DNA of 64,000 nucleotides from Cyanobacteria bacterium FACHB-471 (GTDB lineage: Bacteria; Cyanobacteriota; Cyanobacteriia; Elainellales; Elainellaceae): NCBI GenBank assembly GCA_014695345.1, contig JACJOC010000111.1:1-64000 (forward strand). Direction: 5' to 3'. The notes beneath the pieces are model-generated. The model was given only the letters and a program-made list of their open reading frames with translations. It was not told the origin of the DNA and did no database searches. This document shows positions 30,251 to 39,532 of this stretch, piece after piece. How positions within the stretch are numbered: the first letter of the stretch is position 1; every line of letters starts with the position of its first letter. The position numbers and the translations under genes are program-made.

Positions 30251-31174
30251 ATGGTGAGCATGAGAACTGAACAATCTGTACAAACTGCTGTTTGCGTCTG
30301 GTCTTTGGGACTGCTGCTGTTTCTAGCGGTGCCTGCTAATGCTCAGCGGGTTTTGAGTCCGCAGCTTGTATCTGAGGAAACTGTTTCGGCGGCACAGCCT
30401 TGTGATGTGCAGGCGGTTTTGCAAGATCTGTCTCAGGCAGACGTGGTGTATCTAGGGGAAACGCATGATAGTGCGGCAGACCATGAAGCACAGTTGCAGA
30501 TTATTCAATCGCTGCATGAGCAGAATCCGCGAATGGCGATCGCCCTGGAGATGTTTCAGCGTCCCTATCAGTCGGTGCTAGATCGGTATTTGGCGGGAGA
30601 GATTTCGGCAGAGGAGTTGCGGCAGCAGAGTGAATTTGACCAGCGGTGGGGATTTTCCTGGGCGTACTATGAGCCGATTGTGGAATTTGCGCGGACTCAT
30701 AATTTGCCTGTGATTGCTTTGAATACGCCTACAGAAATTACGCGTCGGGTGGCAGACAAAGGGTTAGGTGGGTTGTTGGAAAGCGATCGCCAGTGGATTC
30801 CGCCTGAGTCAGAGATTCGGACGGACAATGATCAGTATCGGCAAATGCTCCAGGAGGTTTTTGCAGGCGTTCATCATGGGCACGGCAATGGTGGCAGCTT
30901 TGACAACTTCTTTTTGGCGCAGGTGCTTTGGGATGAGACGATGGCGGAGGGAGTTGCCGACTTTGTGGCAGAAAATCCAGACCATCAGGTGGTGGTGTTG
31001 GCGGGGCGAGGACACATTGTTTACGGCTATGGGATTCCAGATCGGGTGGCGCGTCGGCTTGCAGGGGCGGAGTTTAGCCAGCGATCGCTCCTACTTCACC
31101 CACCCGAAGATCTGGTGAATGAGGACTCGGCAGAAGGAGTGGCGATCGCCGACTACTTCTGGTTTTTGGAATAG
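30251..31174 (+). CDS. ChaN-family exported protein
   Basis: 307 residues (ATG 30251; a second ATG at 30260 is possible). A signal peptide (SLGLLLFLAVPANA) is followed by the ChaN domain: VVYLGETHDSAADHEAQLQI with the family GE-x-H motif, ALEMFQRPYQ, and the late VVVLAGRGHIVYGYGIP. ChaN-type proteins bind haem as dimers and are linked to iron uptake in some bacteria; here there is no lipobox. The 3' end overlaps the convergent recJ gene by 22 bases. Confidence 0.9.
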   Translation: MVSMRTEQSVQTAVCVWSLGLLLFLAVPANAQRVLSPQLVSEETVSAAQPCDVQAVLQDLSQADVVYLGETHDSAADHEAQLQIIQSLHEQNPRMAIALEMFQRPYQSVLDRYLAGEISAEELRQQSEFDQRWGFSWAYYEPIVEFARTHNLPVIALNTPTEITRRVADKGLGGLLESDRQWIPPESEIRTDNDQYRQMLQEVFAGVHHGHGNGGSFDNFFLAQVLWDETMAEGVADFVAENPDHQVVVLAGRGHIVYGYGIPDRVARRLAGAEFSQRSLLLHPPEDLVNEDSAEGVAIADYFWFLE

Positions 31175-34100
31175 ATCTCTCTAAAAATTCCGTTCTTGGT
31201 TTCGCTGCCGATCACCAGTGCGTCCAAGATTTCAAACTGCCACTGATAGAGAGAGCTTTCAGCGTGAGCAGCAATGTTTCTCAACTTGTTGATCTGGTCG
31301 ATAGCGGATGCAGCGGCGATCGCCCCGGCATTGAACCATTCTGCTAAAGGATGTTTCCAGCGGGTGAGAAAGGTTGTTAGTTTTTGGCGATCGCTTTGAC
31401 TCACTTGTTTACCAAAGGACACCATACAGTACAAGTCATCATCTTCAGACTCACTACTGCGCTTTAGTGCATCGTCTCGAAAGGAGTACCACTGAGCGGC
31501 AACTAGAGGGGGTAACATACCCAATGTGTATTTTTTGCGATTACCCAATACCACACCACCAATTTCATCTGAGCCACCATTAGTTAAGAGGAACTGGTGT
31601 AGAGATTTGAAGAAGGGATGAATGATCTCTCGCTCAACGGCAAAACCCAATCGCAATCCTGCTTCTGAGTAATCGGCAATTTGTGCAGTGAAGCCTTCTG
31701 AGCGAATAATTTCGTGATTCTTATACGCAAAGTAGAGATCTTTCTGGCTGCGCTGATCGAGAGAAGACCAGATCAGTTCTCCTACTTTTGATTTAACCTG
31801 ACGGCGAATGTGTTCCAGGTCAAGCTGTGTGGAGTGGCTCAGTTCCGTTTGCAAGCGAGCAATGTGAGATTCGTGTGCTTGAATTGCTGCTTCCCTTGCC
31901 TGTAAGTCGGTTTGCAACGTTTGAAACTGGTGCTGCTGCTCGCTGGAAAGCTGGCTAAGTTCCTGATTGAGCAATTCGACCTGCTGATGGAGTGTTTCGA
32001 TTTGTCGATTCTTTTCAATTAAAAGCTGATCTTTTCCTTGAATTAACTGGCTTTTTTCGGATAGTTCTAATGCGCTTAAAGCGGCTCTAATTAAGTTGAA
32101 ATAGTGCGGTAAAGAAACGTCTACTTCTTTTGCTTCCTCTCGTCTTTTGCCTAATAATCCAATTCTTTGACGGGGCTGAACGGCTAATACTTGACCTTCG
32201 GAGTTTCTGATTCTTAACTCTTTGAAGTCACTAGTGCGAGAAATGATGCAGCTATATTTGCGCTTGCTGTAGTAAAACTCAACCTGATTGGGTAAAGCTG
32301 AATCTGCTTCATCCGACTCTGAGTCTGCCTCACTGTCTAAATCGGTAGAATTGCCATTTGCAGGTTGAGAAAAACCTGACGGAACTGCTGGATCAAGCGG
32401 CTCAATCGTGTATTGAGCTTCCTTTTGAATGTGAGACTCAATCGTGTAGCGAATTAGAGATTCGGGGTTGTTTGAATGGGGCTGTTGCTTTCGAGAAAAA
32501 GCTTCGGTCAGCTTCCTGGAAAGTGCCTGGGCGGGAGAAACTGCTGAGGTCGCCCCATTTACATTTCCTACATTTCCACTTCCCCCTGTCCCATTTCCCT
32601 CTGTTCTATGGGGCAGCACTGGGGGCAAGTCAGAACCCTCAGGCAGCCTGATTCCAACTAGTTCTAGTTCAACGTTTTTTTCACCATTCCACTCATTTAG
32701 GCGCAGTCGGTAAGCGGCATCAAGCCGCTCTGGCAGTGGGTAATATTCGCCCCAGCGCCAGGCGATCGCCTTCATCTTCTTTCCCTGAGTTTGTCCGTCC
32801 TGAGTAACCGTTAGCTTTAGGTGCGCTTGCTCTCGCCCGATTGTCTGCTGATCGACCACGCGCAAGTTGGGTGTCCAGAAGATCGGGTCAGGGTTTTCAA
32901 TGCCGCACGGGTGAAGTGCGTCAATTTGCTCATACAAACTCAGGTTCAACTGGCTCAGGTCAGCCTGCACGTCAACAGAGACTAGCGGCTTCAAATGTTC
33001 GGGCTGAAGCTGATGGCTGGCATAAAGCTGAAGGCGCGATCGCCACTCGTCCAGGTTCGCTGCCTTCATGGAAAAGCCACCTGCCGCCCGATGTCCACCA
33101 AACCTTTCTAGCACGTCTCCACAAAACTGAAGCGCCTCAAACACATGGAATTCGGGAATACTGCGGGCTGATCCCCGGATCTTTTCTCGCTCGTCATCCT
33201 CATATGTGCCAATGAAGACGGGCACCCCATAACGCTCAACCAACCGCGATGCGACAATGCCGATTACGCCGTGATGCCAGTCCGGTTGCACGACCACCAG
33301 CACGCGATCGCGCTGCGGCTCAAACTGGCTTTGCTCACACCAGGCGATCGCCTCCTGCTCAATTTGTTCACATAGCTGTTGACGCAGTTGGTTGACCTGC
33401 TCACACGCCATCGCTAGTTCGAGCGATCGCCCCTCATCGTCCGTAGTCAGCAACTCAATCACCATCTGGGGATCAGAAATACGCCCGACCGCGTTAATCC
33501 GGGGTCCCAGCCGAAACCCGATCGCTTCTGGTTTCAGTGCCTTCTCATTACTCAGCCCTGCTACTTGGATTAGCGCCCGGATGCCCGTCAGTTTAGATTT
33601 GGGCAATAGCTTTAGCCCTCGCTTCACCCAGCGGCGATTCACTCCCGTTAGCGGAGCTAGGTCAGCAATCGTGCCCAGGGTGAAAAGCTCAATCAGTGGC
33701 GTGGTCAAGTCCTGCGTTTTTTTCAAGCATTGCGCTAGACAAACTGCCAGAATATAAGCCACACCCACACCTGCAACGCCTCGATAGGGCGACTCTTCGT
33801 GGATCAGCTTGGGGTTGAGAATAGCGTTGGCGGGCGGCAGTTGTTCTGGAATGTCGTGGTGGTCGGTAACGATGACGATTAGCCCCAGTTCTCTGGCTCT
33901 AGCGATCGGCTCATAGGCAGCGATGCCGTTGTCTACGGTGAGAACGAGCTTCACTCCTTCCTCGTGAAATTCCTCGACGATGCGCTGGTTGATGCCGTAG
34001 CCTTCCTGCATTCGGCTGGGAATGGCATAGTCTACGTCGGCACCGAGGAATTTGAGCGATCGCATCAACAGTGCTGTACTGGTCATGCCATCTGCGTCAT

Positions 34101-34467
34101 AGTCGCCACAGATCGCGATTCTTTGTTGGGTGGCGATCGCCCACATCAGCAGTTCCAGGGCGATCGCCAGGTCGGGAAACTCCTCAATCGGTGAAGGCAA
34201 CAGTTGGGCCTCCGGGTTGAGAAACGTCTGAGCCGCCTCTGCTGTCTTAATTCCCCGGTTGATTAAAACCTGTGCCAGCAGGGGCGAGAGTTGCGTCATC
34301 TGAGCTAGCCTTGCCGCCTGCTCTGCCTGCTGTGCTGCAATCTGCCATCGCTGCTGAGGAATGGGCCATCGCCGCAGCGCCCGAATCGCCTGTGACTGGG
34401 GCTGTCTGGCACGAGCAGATTGGGCGCGAGCCGATGAGGTCAGGTCAGGAAGAGGCAGGTCTGGCAC
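31153..34467 (-). CDS. recJ: RecJ exonuclease with coiled-coil and HEPN-like C-terminal extension
   Basis: 1104 residues, GTG start. The first 590 or so form a complete RecJ: DHH-domain motifs AICGDYDADGMTSTALL and VTDHHDIPEQ, then DHHA1 with FGGHRAAGGFSM, then an OB-like part. RecJ degrades single-stranded DNA 5' to 3' in repair. Beyond the usual length come a disordered acidic linker, a small beta segment (FYYSKRKYSCIIS), a long Gln/Leu-rich coiled coil (about 795-890) and a helical region of about 200 residues ending with LRNIAAHAE. There R1063 and H1068 give an Rx4H pattern as in HEPN ribonuclease domains. The RecJ assignment is firm; the HEPN reading is inference from one motif. Confidence 0.9.
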   Translation of the reverse strand: MPDLPLPDLTSSARAQSARARQPQSQAIRALRRWPIPQQRWQIAAQQAEQAARLAQMTQLSPLLAQVLINRGIKTAEAAQTFLNPEAQLLPSPIEEFPDLAIALELLMWAIATQQRIAICGDYDADGMTSTALLMRSLKFLGADVDYAIPSRMQEGYGINQRIVEEFHEEGVKLVLTVDNGIAAYEPIARARELGLIVIVTDHHDIPEQLPPANAILNPKLIHEESPYRGVAGVGVAYILAVCLAQCLKKTQDLTTPLIELFTLGTIADLAPLTGVNRRWVKRGLKLLPKSKLTGIRALIQVAGLSNEKALKPEAIGFRLGPRINAVGRISDPQMVIELLTTDDEGRSLELAMACEQVNQLRQQLCEQIEQEAIAWCEQSQFEPQRDRVLVVVQPDWHHGVIGIVASRLVERYGVPVFIGTYEDDEREKIRGSARSIPEFHVFEALQFCGDVLERFGGHRAAGGFSMKAANLDEWRSRLQLYASHQLQPEHLKPLVSVDVQADLSQLNLSLYEQIDALHPCGIENPDPIFWTPNLRVVDQQTIGREQAHLKLTVTQDGQTQGKKMKAIAWRWGEYYPLPERLDAAYRLRLNEWNGEKNVELELVGIRLPEGSDLPPVLPHRTEGNGTGGSGNVGNVNGATSAVSPAQALSRKLTEAFSRKQQPHSNNPESLIRYTIESHIQKEAQYTIEPLDPAVPSGFSQPANGNSTDLDSEADSESDEADSALPNQVEFYYSKRKYSCIISRTSDFKELRIRNSEGQVLAVQPRQRIGLLGKRREEAKEVDVSLPHYFNLIRAALSALELSEKSQLIQGKDQLLIEKNRQIETLHQQVELLNQELSQLSSEQQHQFQTLQTDLQAREAAIQAHESHIARLQTELSHSTQLDLEHIRRQVKSKVGELIWSSLDQRSQKDLYFAYKNHEIIRSEGFTAQIADYSEAGLRLGFAVEREIIHPFFKSLHQFLLTNGGSDEIGGVVLGNRKKYTLGMLPPLVAAQWYSFRDDALKRSSESEDDDLYCMVSFGKQVSQSDRQKLTTFLTRWKHPLAEWFNAGAIAAASAIDQINKLRNIAAHAESSLYQWQFEILDALVIGSETKNGIFREIYSKNQK

Positions 34468-38206: not shown

Positions 38207-39532
38207 ATGAAAGCCTCCATCCGCAGAATATGTCTGTTTATACTCGGCTTTATCTTAACCGTTGGGATTAGCAGTCAATCTCTGCCTGCTTACTCTACAG
38301 AAGTGTCCGTCGTGCCAGAAGCGGGCGATCGCATTGCAGAAGTTGAGCAGCTTTGGCGCGGACAGTATGAAACTTATTTCGGCAATCAGCTTGTTGGTAC
38401 TCCTCTAACAGCCGAGCAGATTTCAGCAACGTTAGGACGACTCAACAGTGAGACGGACAAAAACTTCGCGTTGATCTATGCCTTCCCCCAGCCTGAAGAG
38501 TTAGAGCTGTTATTAGTCATTCCTGAAACACCATCCGTGCGGGTAACAGTGCCAGAAGCTGGACAGCAAGAATTGTTAGAAGTGGCAAATGAATTTAAGA
38601 CAGCAGTCTCTCGACCAACTGGTGCAAGAAGGGACTTAACTTCTGCAAAACAGCTTTATGATTGGCTGATTGCGCCTCTGGAACCGCAGCTTCAAGCCCA
38701 AAATATTGATACTCTAATTTTATGTAGTGGGGCAATTTTGCGATCGCTTCCCTTCGCAGCCCTCCATGATGGACAACAGTTTTTAGTAGAGAAATACAAT
38801 CTTGGATTGGTGCCAGCTTTCAACCTGATCAACCAGCAGCACAGCAACTTTAGGAACGAGAAAGTACTGGCAATGGGTGCCTCTGAGTTTCAGGCAATGC
38901 CCACACTTCATGCTGTTCCTTTAGAGCTTTCCACTATCACACAAGATATCTGGCAAAGTGAAGTGTTTTTGAACCAAGAGTTTACGTTGAGCAATCTGGC
39001 TGAGCAGCTTGAATCAGGGGAATTTGGCATCGTTCACCTGGCGACTCATGCTCAGTTTCGACCCGGAACACCAGAAAACTCATACATTCAACTTTGGCAA
39101 AATGATAAACTCACTTTAGATCAACTGCGCCAGTTAGACTGGAGTGAGTTGCCCGTTGAGCTACTGGTGTTAAGTGCTTGCCAGACTGCCTTGGGCGATC
39201 GCCAGGCAGAGCTAGGATTTGCCGGACTGGCGTTTCAGGCAGGGGTGAAGTCTTCCGTTGCAAGCCTGTGGCAGGTGAGCGATCTGGGTACCTTGGCATT
39301 AATGCGAGAGTTTTATTGGCAGTTGGCGAACCCAGAAGTCACGACCAAAACAGAAGCCCTACGAAGAACACAAATTGCTATGCTGAGTGGGAATGTGAGG
39401 ATTGAGAACGGACAGATTTACACATCAGCAGGAGTACTACCCCTGCCCGAAGACCTGAAGCAGTTTCAAAACCTCGATTTATCTGCTCCCTACTACTGGT
39501 CAGCATTTACCCTGATTGGTAGCCCCTGGTAA
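38207..39532 (+). CDS. Exported short CHAT-domain protein
   Basis: 441 residues. A signal peptide (LFILGFILTVGISSQSLPAY) is followed by a CHAT (caspase-like) domain covering most of the rest. The His of the catalytic dyad is in IVHLATHAQF, the Cys in LVLSACQTALGD, and the domain ends with the usual SAFTLIGSPW. Most cyanobacterial CHAT proteins carry long TPR arrays before the protease domain; this one has none. It would act outside the cytoplasm, as a protease or scaffold. A truncated AraC gene starts right at its 3' end in the same frame. Confidence 0.9.
   Translation: MKASIRRICLFILGFILTVGISSQSLPAYSTEVSVVPEAGDRIAEVEQLWRGQYETYFGNQLVGTPLTAEQISATLGRLNSETDKNFALIYAFPQPEELELLLVIPETPSVRVTVPEAGQQELLEVANEFKTAVSRPTGARRDLTSAKQLYDWLIAPLEPQLQAQNIDTLILCSGAILRSLPFAALHDGQQFLVEKYNLGLVPAFNLINQQHSNFRNEKVLAMGASEFQAMPTLHAVPLELSTITQDIWQSEVFLNQEFTLSNLAEQLESGEFGIVHLATHAQFRPGTPENSYIQLWQNDKLTLDQLRQLDWSELPVELLVLSACQTALGDRQAELGFAGLAFQAGVKSSVASLWQVSDLGTLALMREFYWQLANPEVTTKTEALRRTQIAMLSGNVRIENGQIYTSAGVLPLPEDLKQFQNLDLSAPYYWSAFTLIGSPW

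Follow-up and report, generated by a model that had tools for sequence, protein, structure and literature searches.

A cyanobacterial RecJ with an added coiled coil and a predicted HEPN domain of RnlA-like fold

We consider it probable that the window, a stretch of 64,000 nucleotides from Cyanobacteria bacterium FACHB-471 (contig JACJOC010000111.1), encodes a RecJ with a beta tail that is extended by a coiled coil and an RnlA-like HEPN domain, and that the protein would act in this lineage as a dimeric RNase tethered to DNA. The original prediction of a RecJ fused to a long C-terminal extension describes a real open reading frame (ORF): the tail following residue 605 contains a linker, a beta segment, long helices, and a helical domain in the order that had been claimed, and the sequence RNIAAH with R1063 and H1068 is present in the translation. 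The features are as follows.

31153–34467, minus strand: recJ–HEPN fusion gene, 1104 amino acids, GTG start at 34467 and stop at 31153–31155 (ORF and translation)
32662–34287, minus strand: RecJ catalytic core, residues 61–602 (TIGR00644, Pfam domains, alignment with E. coli RecJ)
within the RecJ core, minus strand: DHH (residues 116–266), DHHA1 (388–480), and RecJ_OB (498–603) (Pfam, above cut-offs)
32293–32652, minus strand: low-complexity linker, residues 606–725 (sequence; dN/dS 0.36)
32053–32292, minus strand: small beta domain and start of the next helix, residues 726–805, the beta segment itself being residues about 726–786 (matches of profile A1, model)
31840–32109, minus strand: coiled coil, residues about 787–876 (two long helices in the model, with low pLDDT in the middle part)
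31156–31830, minus strand: HEPN-like domain, residues 880–1104 (AlphaFold2 model, structural matches to RnlA)
31627–31632, minus strand: R946-E947 in helix 2, candidate site of the HEPN helix-2 acidic residue (alignment, model)
31264–31281, minus strand: Rx4H motif R1063-N-I-A-A-H1068 at the end of helix 3 (sequence and model)

The catalytic part of RecJ is complete, as had been proposed. TIGR00644 matched residues 61–602 with 496 bits (equivalog cut-off 396.9), the DHH, DHHA1, and RecJ_OB domains each scored above their own Pfam cut-offs in a scan of the whole protein, and E. coli RecJ aligned over nearly its full length (275 bits, 32% identity). Two RecJ paralogues are present here, as in many cyanobacteria according to the excerpted text of PMC5101192, and by sequence the window gene is the E. 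coli-like paralogue (recJec type), a predicted 5′–3′ ssDNA exonuclease. The beta part of profile A1 was matched without a HEPN part in 96 of the 386 genomes of the phylum (counted by hand); cyanobacterial RecJ proteins commonly have this beta domain at their C-terminus.

When the helical domain (residues 880–1104, 225 residues) was modeled alone with AlphaFold2, a confident model was obtained (pLDDT 93.3, pTM 0.91). Its top structural matches were the RnlA entries 4i8o (Z 9.6 over 136 residues, rmsd 3.7) and 6y2s (Z 9.1), and the next chain after both had a Z of 3.8; a larger model gave the same top match, with the RnlA entries at Z 9.6 and 9.5. Positions 3–221 of the model superpose on RnlA 203–357, which is nearly the whole domain. 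Helix 3 comprises model positions 170–188 (residues 1049–1067) and stops just before H1068, and HEPN RNases carry Rx4–6H at the end of helix 3 or the start of the loop to helix 4 (PMC3710099, excerpted text). Helix 2 (residues 934–962) holds the acidic E945 and E947, and the polar N1064 follows R1063; a helix-2 acidic residue and a polar residue after the arginine are described in the same excerpts as usual, though not universal, in HEPN domains (PMC3710099). Because the model is confident, RnlA scores well above the rest, and the motif lies at the end of helix 3, the HEPN assignment is structurally well supported, and the model makes it very probable that the helical domain belongs to this fold, as originally suggested.

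Searches other than this structural alignment, which was made with a second aligner, gave weak signals or none. Foldseek with the domain model returned no match at an E-value of 0.001 or better, profile–profile comparison (hhalign) found no match to E. coli RnlA or four RnlA-family sequences, and in profile searches of the 66 members, the window included, the domain did not reach the cut-off of any profile. Sub-threshold Pfam matches among the 66 members included HEPN_Swt1 (6), HEPN_RiboL-PSP (4), and Abi_2 (2), and the PADLOC AbiD model matched six of the 66 weakly (best E-value 0.0015); unrelated families were equally weak, such as P8_CR in four of 66, with 26 families altogether. For PF18869 (HEPN_RnaseLS), no match is listed for the domain, and none of the 386 genomes of the phylum, the window's own included, had a match above cut-off in a search that likewise gave 0 of 14 among control genomes. 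Membership in the RnlA family by sequence was dropped as a candidate, with neither PF18869 nor hhalign giving a match.

The claim that R1063 and H1068 form an active site was examined in an alignment of 66 homologous domains. These consist of the window and the survey loci, the latter without their copy of the window and without three fragments (L006, L008, and L034), together with further rows from eight of the 28 additional family-f23 genomes with a locus-less match and from one Pseudanabaena-type genome. The motif is intact in the window's lineage, so that part of the claim stands; both residues are kept in 22 of the 66 domains and the full motif is missing from the other 44. Because the pair is found in 22 of 66, the refuting condition set with the original prediction, that R1063 and H1068 are not conserved, applies to most of the fusions examined, and since the listed loci are the best-scoring ones, the true share is probably lower still. 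D932, R946, E947, W993, W1037, H1039, W1076, and G1087 are kept in 61–66 of the 66 domains, R946 and E947 each being conserved in 64. When 1378 comparable column pairs were ranked by association, ignoring kinship, the pairings of R1063, N1064, and H1068 took ranks 1, 3, and 4. In a sign test of R versus H on independent pairs, which are few, a mean of 2.7 out of 6 changed the same way and 0.1 the opposite way, and a tree built without the motif columns implies at least 11 motif changes, four of them forced by well-supported branches. R1063, N1064, and H1068 tend to be retained or lost as a set in these sequences, a pattern that would most simply be explained by an ancestral RNase that decayed repeatedly.

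Comparison of the window with its two nearest relatives gave dN/dS values of 0.034–0.044 for the C-terminal domain and 0.10–0.11 for the RecJ core, the latter over 149 codons covered in one of the two comparisons; the linker is the fastest-evolving part. Within the window's genus, purifying selection on the C-terminal domain is strong, and with the domain also occurring in the majority of genomes in two families, it is more than a product of chance. Among the pairs listed, motif-keeping pairs span dN/dS values of 0.035–0.273, and the ratio of domain to RecJ dN/dS ranges from 0.41 (the window pair) to 3.4 in motif-keeping pairs and from 1.7 to 6.5 in motif-lacking pairs, two ranges that overlap. 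Motif-lacking lineages among these pairs still have dN/dS below 1, and dN/dS fails to separate them from motif-keeping lineages. A tighter constraint in motif-keeping lineages, which had been expected and was hinted at by 20 chosen pairs, was gone in the fuller table; it is the window's genus that is exceptionally constrained.

A survey for the fusion, which the original prediction had called for, found 27 of 36 genomes in the window's family and 58 of 63 in a second family to carry the domain (counts that include the centers), and the HEPN addition to RecJ turned up in a few families. At least two genera have a run of nine A residues at the beta/coil junction, after which the HEPN part continues in the −1 frame; dnaX provides a known example of frameshifting or transcript slippage. 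In Pseudanabaena-type genomes, the HEPN module is a free gene downstream of hfq, which lies upstream of it in all ten loci scanned (eight distinct regions). The motif of this free form, KLRNLTAHPMPIYKWQF, is identical in all eight aligned proteins, and its dN/dS is likewise low (0.05–0.11). No account of a RecJ–HEPN fusion was found in the open full-text literature in PMC, judged by title and abstract, with subscription journals mostly outside this body of text.

A link of the fused form to defense islands was not borne out by the neighbors, PADLOC, or ORF clusters. A PADLOC scan of ten window neighbors at 0.001 produced one weak match, a CHAT-like ORF, and no antitoxin-like gene was seen among these ten. 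When eleven window neighbors were compared with 58 loci, several of which are short or end near the fusion gene, ChaN was clearly present in two near-identical loci and a GT4 gene was weakly matched in one; the window's neighbors are common to near relatives only. In all-against-all clustering of ORFs from 59 sources, the four largest clusters were recJ itself and frames inside recJ. In 17 of the 59 sources, the window not being among them, recJ is directly preceded on its own strand by a small gene (frames of 143–176 amino acids), which had no Pfam match in the three frames tested. Because the RecJ of one of these 17 sources (L142) is without the HEPN part, the small gene tracks recJ rather than the HEPN domain. 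A gene that looks TPR-like by eye lies downstream of recJ in 14 of the 59 sources, and the other ORF clusters were small, clade-limited sets. No RNA, DNA-damage, or defense context was found around the fused gene among the window neighbors and the 58–59 loci. At the thresholds applied, searches of plasmids, phages, and viral contigs came back empty, as did Foldseek against viral models at 0.001, and with all of these negative an origin from a mobile element was dropped.

HEPN RNases need two HEPN domains brought together. In the reading we prefer, a coiled coil and a HEPN domain of RnlA-like fold would have been added behind the usual small C-terminal beta domain of RecJ, the coiled coil would dimerize the protein and so pair two HEPN domains, and in this lineage the dimer would be a metal-independent endoribonuclease. 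With RecJ as its anchor at 5′ ends and ssDNA gaps, the HEPN dimer would cut RNA near, or upon, DNA resection; in motif-less lineages the domain may retain a binding or dimerizing role. RNase activity of the HEPN domain in this lineage has slightly better than even prospects, and a coupling of this putative activity to RecJ engaging DNA is doubtful. We think it rather unlikely that the whole of a broader scheme applies, in which RecJ on ssDNA would switch on or position the HEPN RNase, the RNase would have been silenced in several lineages with the scaffold kept and set free beside hfq in Pseudanabaena, and slippage on the A9 run could set the ratio of RecJ to RecJ–HEPN.

That the domain is an unrelated helical fold, with RNIAAH arising by chance and the likeness to RnlA merely a general arrangement, is in our estimate very improbable. 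Rx4H alone is common, a Z of 9–10 in a helical domain can reflect a widespread arrangement, and the profile, Foldseek, and hhalign searches yielded nothing significant, but the gap in Z between 9.1–9.6 and 3.8, the placement of the motif at its defining position, the recurrent weak matches to HEPN families, and the way R, N, and H are kept together all argue for HEPN. Granting the fold, the domain could still be non-catalytic, serving as a dimerization module or as a nucleic-acid- or protein-binding module that tunes the processivity, substrate choice, or recruitment of RecJ, with RNxxAH surviving in some lineages as a relic, by chance or for structural reasons. The absence of the motif from two-thirds of the domains while eight other residues persist, the continued constraint on motif-lacking lineages among the pairs listed, and the existence of motif-less HEPN domains thought to bind nucleic acids (PMC3710099, excerpted text) suit this explanation; an active site better accounts for the joint retention or loss of R, N, and H, and the identical motif in the Pseudanabaena free form also counts against it. 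We regard a non-catalytic domain as possible, though not as the probable case.

An abortive-infection or toxin device, in which phage DNA or damaged DNA sensed by RecJ would prompt the HEPN domain to stop translation in the manner of RloC, is improbable. Precedent is available in RloC, where a Rad50-like part responsive to double-strand breaks is joined to a tRNase (excerpts of PMC3874168 and PMC3710099), and in S. elongatus the RecJcy paralogue restricts how well RSF1010 plasmids are transferred or maintained (excerpt of PMC10653904). Against such a device, most genomes of two families have the fusion, no match came from plasmids, phages, or viral contigs, no defense neighbor was seen, and the motif has been lost repeatedly, though toxins too are expected to show loss.

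A repair nuclease in most members of two cyanobacterial families carries a predicted HEPN domain, and a coupling of RecJ-dependent resection to RNA cleavage in these organisms becomes testable. The natural losses of the active site, scattered over the tree, offer a ready comparative experiment on how toxin-like RNases become domesticated and disappear. If the coupling is true, resection of damaged, foreign, or replicating DNA would directly reshape RNA.

HEPN RNases are mostly toxins or defense effectors, and RloC is a clear case tied to a DNA-break sensor. RloC and PrrC follow a like logic in that a single polypeptide joins a HEPN RNase to a DNA-metabolism part, but their DNA part is an SbcC/Rad50-like ABC ATPase, whereas here it is a RecJ exonuclease and Pfam finds no ABC domain in the whole protein. 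RnlA (RNase LS), the E. coli HEPN endoribonuclease of the RnlAB toxin–antitoxin system, shares the predicted fold over nearly the whole domain. R318 and H323 of its 357 residues lie at a similar distance from the C-terminus as R1063 and H1068 of 1104, residues that are paired by their place in the fold, and by eye both proteins have a helix 2 that begins with DY(S/C) and a tail that reads GI..(D/E)(L/I)Y, likenesses that may be chance. Unlike RnlA, the window protein lacks the RnlA N-terminal domains and is attached to RecJ, with no significant sequence match between the two; an RnlB-like partner was not noticed among the ten window neighbors scanned, and window-type genes are chromosomal and occur in most genomes of their families. 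HEPN proteins of the Abi2/Swt1 group (AbiD, AbiF, and Swt1) match weakly and below threshold in sequence, and have different domain partners in the excerpts of PMC3710099. Compared with other cyanobacterial RecJ proteins of the recJec type, the enzyme core is identical in kind and the beta tail is common to many, but most are about 655–850 amino acids long, whereas the fusions add a coiled coil and a HEPN domain and have unbroken frames of about 940–1230 amino acids.

The gene under study is a single uninterrupted frame of 1104 residues, and the same genome encodes a second RecJ paralogue at locus L002:

Window 34467 (GTG) to 31153 (stop), minus strand, recJ-HEPN open reading frame
L002 1513-3876, second RecJ, 787 aa, 194 bits against E. 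coli RecJ

The window protein matched the RecJ equivalog model with 496 bits over residues 61-602 (cut-off 397), its DHH, DHHA1, and RecJ_OB domains each scored above their own cut-offs, and its alignment with E. coli RecJ extended across the E. coli protein with 275 bits. The sequence beyond residue 605 consists of a fast-evolving linker, then a small domain of beta structure, a pair of long helices, and, last, a compact domain at the C-terminus, which bears out the original prediction of a complete RecJ with a long C-terminal extension. Following the naming used in PMC5101192, we infer that the window gene is of the recJec type and the L002 gene of the recJcy type. The C-terminal region of the L002 protein is unlike that of the window RecJ.

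The last domain was modeled with AlphaFold2 from a 66-row alignment of this domain (pLDDT 93.3, pTM 0.91). Foldseek alone returned no significant match for the model among solved structures. When 73 of the 74 best Foldseek candidates were re-aligned in a second step, the top structures were two entries of E. coli RnlA (Z 9.6 and Z 9.1), described as a HEPN RNase in PMC3710099, followed by a chain at Z 3.8; the CRISPR RNase Csm6 scored Z 3.2. The Z 9.6 alignment covers 136 residues at rmsd 3.7 (model 3-221 against RnlA 203-357), and a larger model again placed the RnlA entries first (Z 9.6 and 9.5). In the model, R1063 lies near the end of helix 1049-1067 with N1064 after it and H1068 just beyond the helix, and E945/E947 are located in helix 934-962. 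Sequence profile searches of the 66 members gave nothing above cut-off; among the weaker Pfam matches HEPN models turn up repeatedly (HEPN_Swt1 in 6 members, HEPN_RiboL-PSP in 4, Abi_2 in 2), within a set covering 26 families that includes unrelated ones of similar weakness (P8_CR, 4/66), and PADLOC AbiD matches in 6/66 members were likewise below cut-off. Because of the RnlA structural match and the motif position, and not on the basis of sequence, the last domain very probably has a HEPN fold, in line with what had been predicted for this region.

Searching 386 phylum genomes with a 57-row profile of residues 726-1104 gave matches in 109, of which, by hand count from the listing, 6 matched with the C-terminal domain, 7 with the coil only, and 96 with the beta domain, some of these also reaching the start of the coil. 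Since beta-domain matches are this numerous and, in the three genomes inspected closely (G318, G099, and G062), RecJ and the beta domain behind it share one open frame, the beta domain is a widespread tail of cyanobacterial RecJ to which the coiled coil and last domain are an addition. The last domain alone (66-row profile) gave strong matches in 6/386 phylum genomes and marginal ones in 6 more (E 0.006-0.1), and was matched in 27/36 genomes of the window's family and 58/63 of a second family; the domain is absent from RecJ in some of the genomes without a match (G318, G311, G379), and others are incomplete. Two short patterns scanned in genomes of 84,980 species yielded 38 loci, every record title naming cyanobacteria, and the domain had no match in the viral contigs, plasmids, and phages searched. 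The RecJ-HEPN architecture is real and lineage-specific. Two side observations concern the beta domain: the prediction for that of the window (32053-32292) resembles polo-box domains at Z about 7, a score that a common arrangement alone could explain, and L073 (1498-2259) and other same-genus genomes of family f10 encode a free protein of ~253 aa with a RecJ-type beta domain and coiled coil, from which the HEPN part is absent.

The original prediction would be refuted if R1063 and H1068 were not conserved in homologous fusions. This counts against it for most fusions examined, but not in the window's lineage, where the pair is kept; both residues are present in 22/66 rows (28/72 once six Pseudanabaena-type rows were added). 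The scaffold beyond the active site is much better conserved: R946 and E947 each in 64 of the 66 rows, H1039 in 61, and W993, W1037, and G1087 in all 66. With the motif columns left out of the tree, 11 or more motif changes are required, and 4 of these are imposed by well-supported branches; shuffled labels require 22. The tree itself is blind to gain versus loss; since the same RN..AH occurs in separate clades with varied replacements elsewhere, the history reads best as loss, and judged by these sequences the motif is lost in most relatives examined. The R1063/N1064/H1068 pairings rank 1, 3, and 4 among 1378 similarly variable column pairs, a ranking that leaves relatedness in. Between the window and near relatives, dN/dS is 0.034-0.044 for the last domain and higher, 0.10-0.11, for RecJ-core codons (149 codons, the only comparison with enough codons). 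Selection was also considered as a marker of the kept motif, with stronger constraint expected, and was rejected, as the fuller dN/dS table did not show tighter constraint in motif-keeping lineages generally.

At three loci (L196, L197, and L198; three genomes, two genera), the RecJ-plus-beta frame stops just past a run of nine A where the beta domain meets the coil, and the remainder, coil plus HEPN part, lies in the -1 frame:

L196 2698-2706, minus strand, A9 run
L197 2490-2498, A9 run
L198 2656-2664, A9 run

A candidate programmed slippage site yielding both plain RecJ and RecJ-HEPN, a shared assembly error, and gene decay all fit this split. L140 and L146 carry an A9 run at the same junction with the fused gene still in one frame, and the window gene has no A9 run there. 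Some splits may be plain errors, as the frame is also broken away from this junction, inside RecJ in L199 and inside the HEPN part in L141 (2716-5912), where either assembly error or decay would account for the break.

The module also occurs on its own, as a protein from open frames 371-381 aa long (beta domain at the start, coiled coil, and HEPN-like domain), in L168, L170-L175, and L139 (records of Pseudanabaena plus a single Phormidium tenue record and one further genome), with no RecJ in the same frame at any of these loci. KLRNLTAHPMPIYKWQF is unchanged in all eight free proteins, and their motif, RNLTAH, is invariant. In 10/10 loci scanned (eight distinct regions; L067 and L068 included), hfq precedes the module on the same strand at a distance of 139 to about 1200 bases. 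Both free-module genomes examined (n=2) have a RecJ without the beta domain. The tree places the free form among the fused forms on a long branch, and it may have split from a fused ancestor or have a separate origin. By eye, an acyl-CoA-ligase-like gene is near the free module in eight loci. Separately, a Pseudanabaena-type recJ (L194) is broken by a ~1.7 kb insert. Judged by eye, this insert encodes a Uma2-like ORF together with a partial coiled-coil ORF, in which the stretch RxGGNNAAH is DUF4145-like.

The suggested link to defence islands found no support: no defence context was seen around the fusion among the window neighbours and 59 sources, and the window gene's neighbours are common to near relatives only. 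Elsewhere, in 17/59 sources (e.g., L146 2702-3187), recJ is directly preceded by a small gene of the same orientation. In one of these sources the RecJ lacks the HEPN part, and a Pfam search of three of the small genes gave no match. A CHAT-protease-like ORF (by eye; window 38207-39532), located some 4 kb away from recJ, has a weak PADLOC match to BovA (E 1.1e-7). A defence role for RecJ-HEPN is unsupported.

RecJ degrades single-stranded DNA 5'-3', and HEPN RNases work as dimers. The coiled coil would dimerize the protein, pairing two HEPN sites, RecJ would bring it to single-stranded DNA, and in the window's lineage RNA would be cut there or in response. RNase activity in this lineage is plausible; DNA-to-RNA coupling via RecJ-HEPN is hypothetical. 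We found no prior description of this architecture in the open PMC full-text literature (by title and abstract).

HEPN RNases cut without metal, as stated in PMC3710099. The predicted fold of the window domain resembles that of RnlA, although sequence profiles give no match, also in a profile-profile comparison of the two. As context only, from other proteins, RecJcy is described as limiting foreign DNA in S. elongatus (PMC10653904) and recJ as doing so in Synechocystis (PMC10667661, PMC7690421). In RloC, likewise a different protein given for context, a DNA-break-responsive part can govern a HEPN tRNase, according to PMC3874168.
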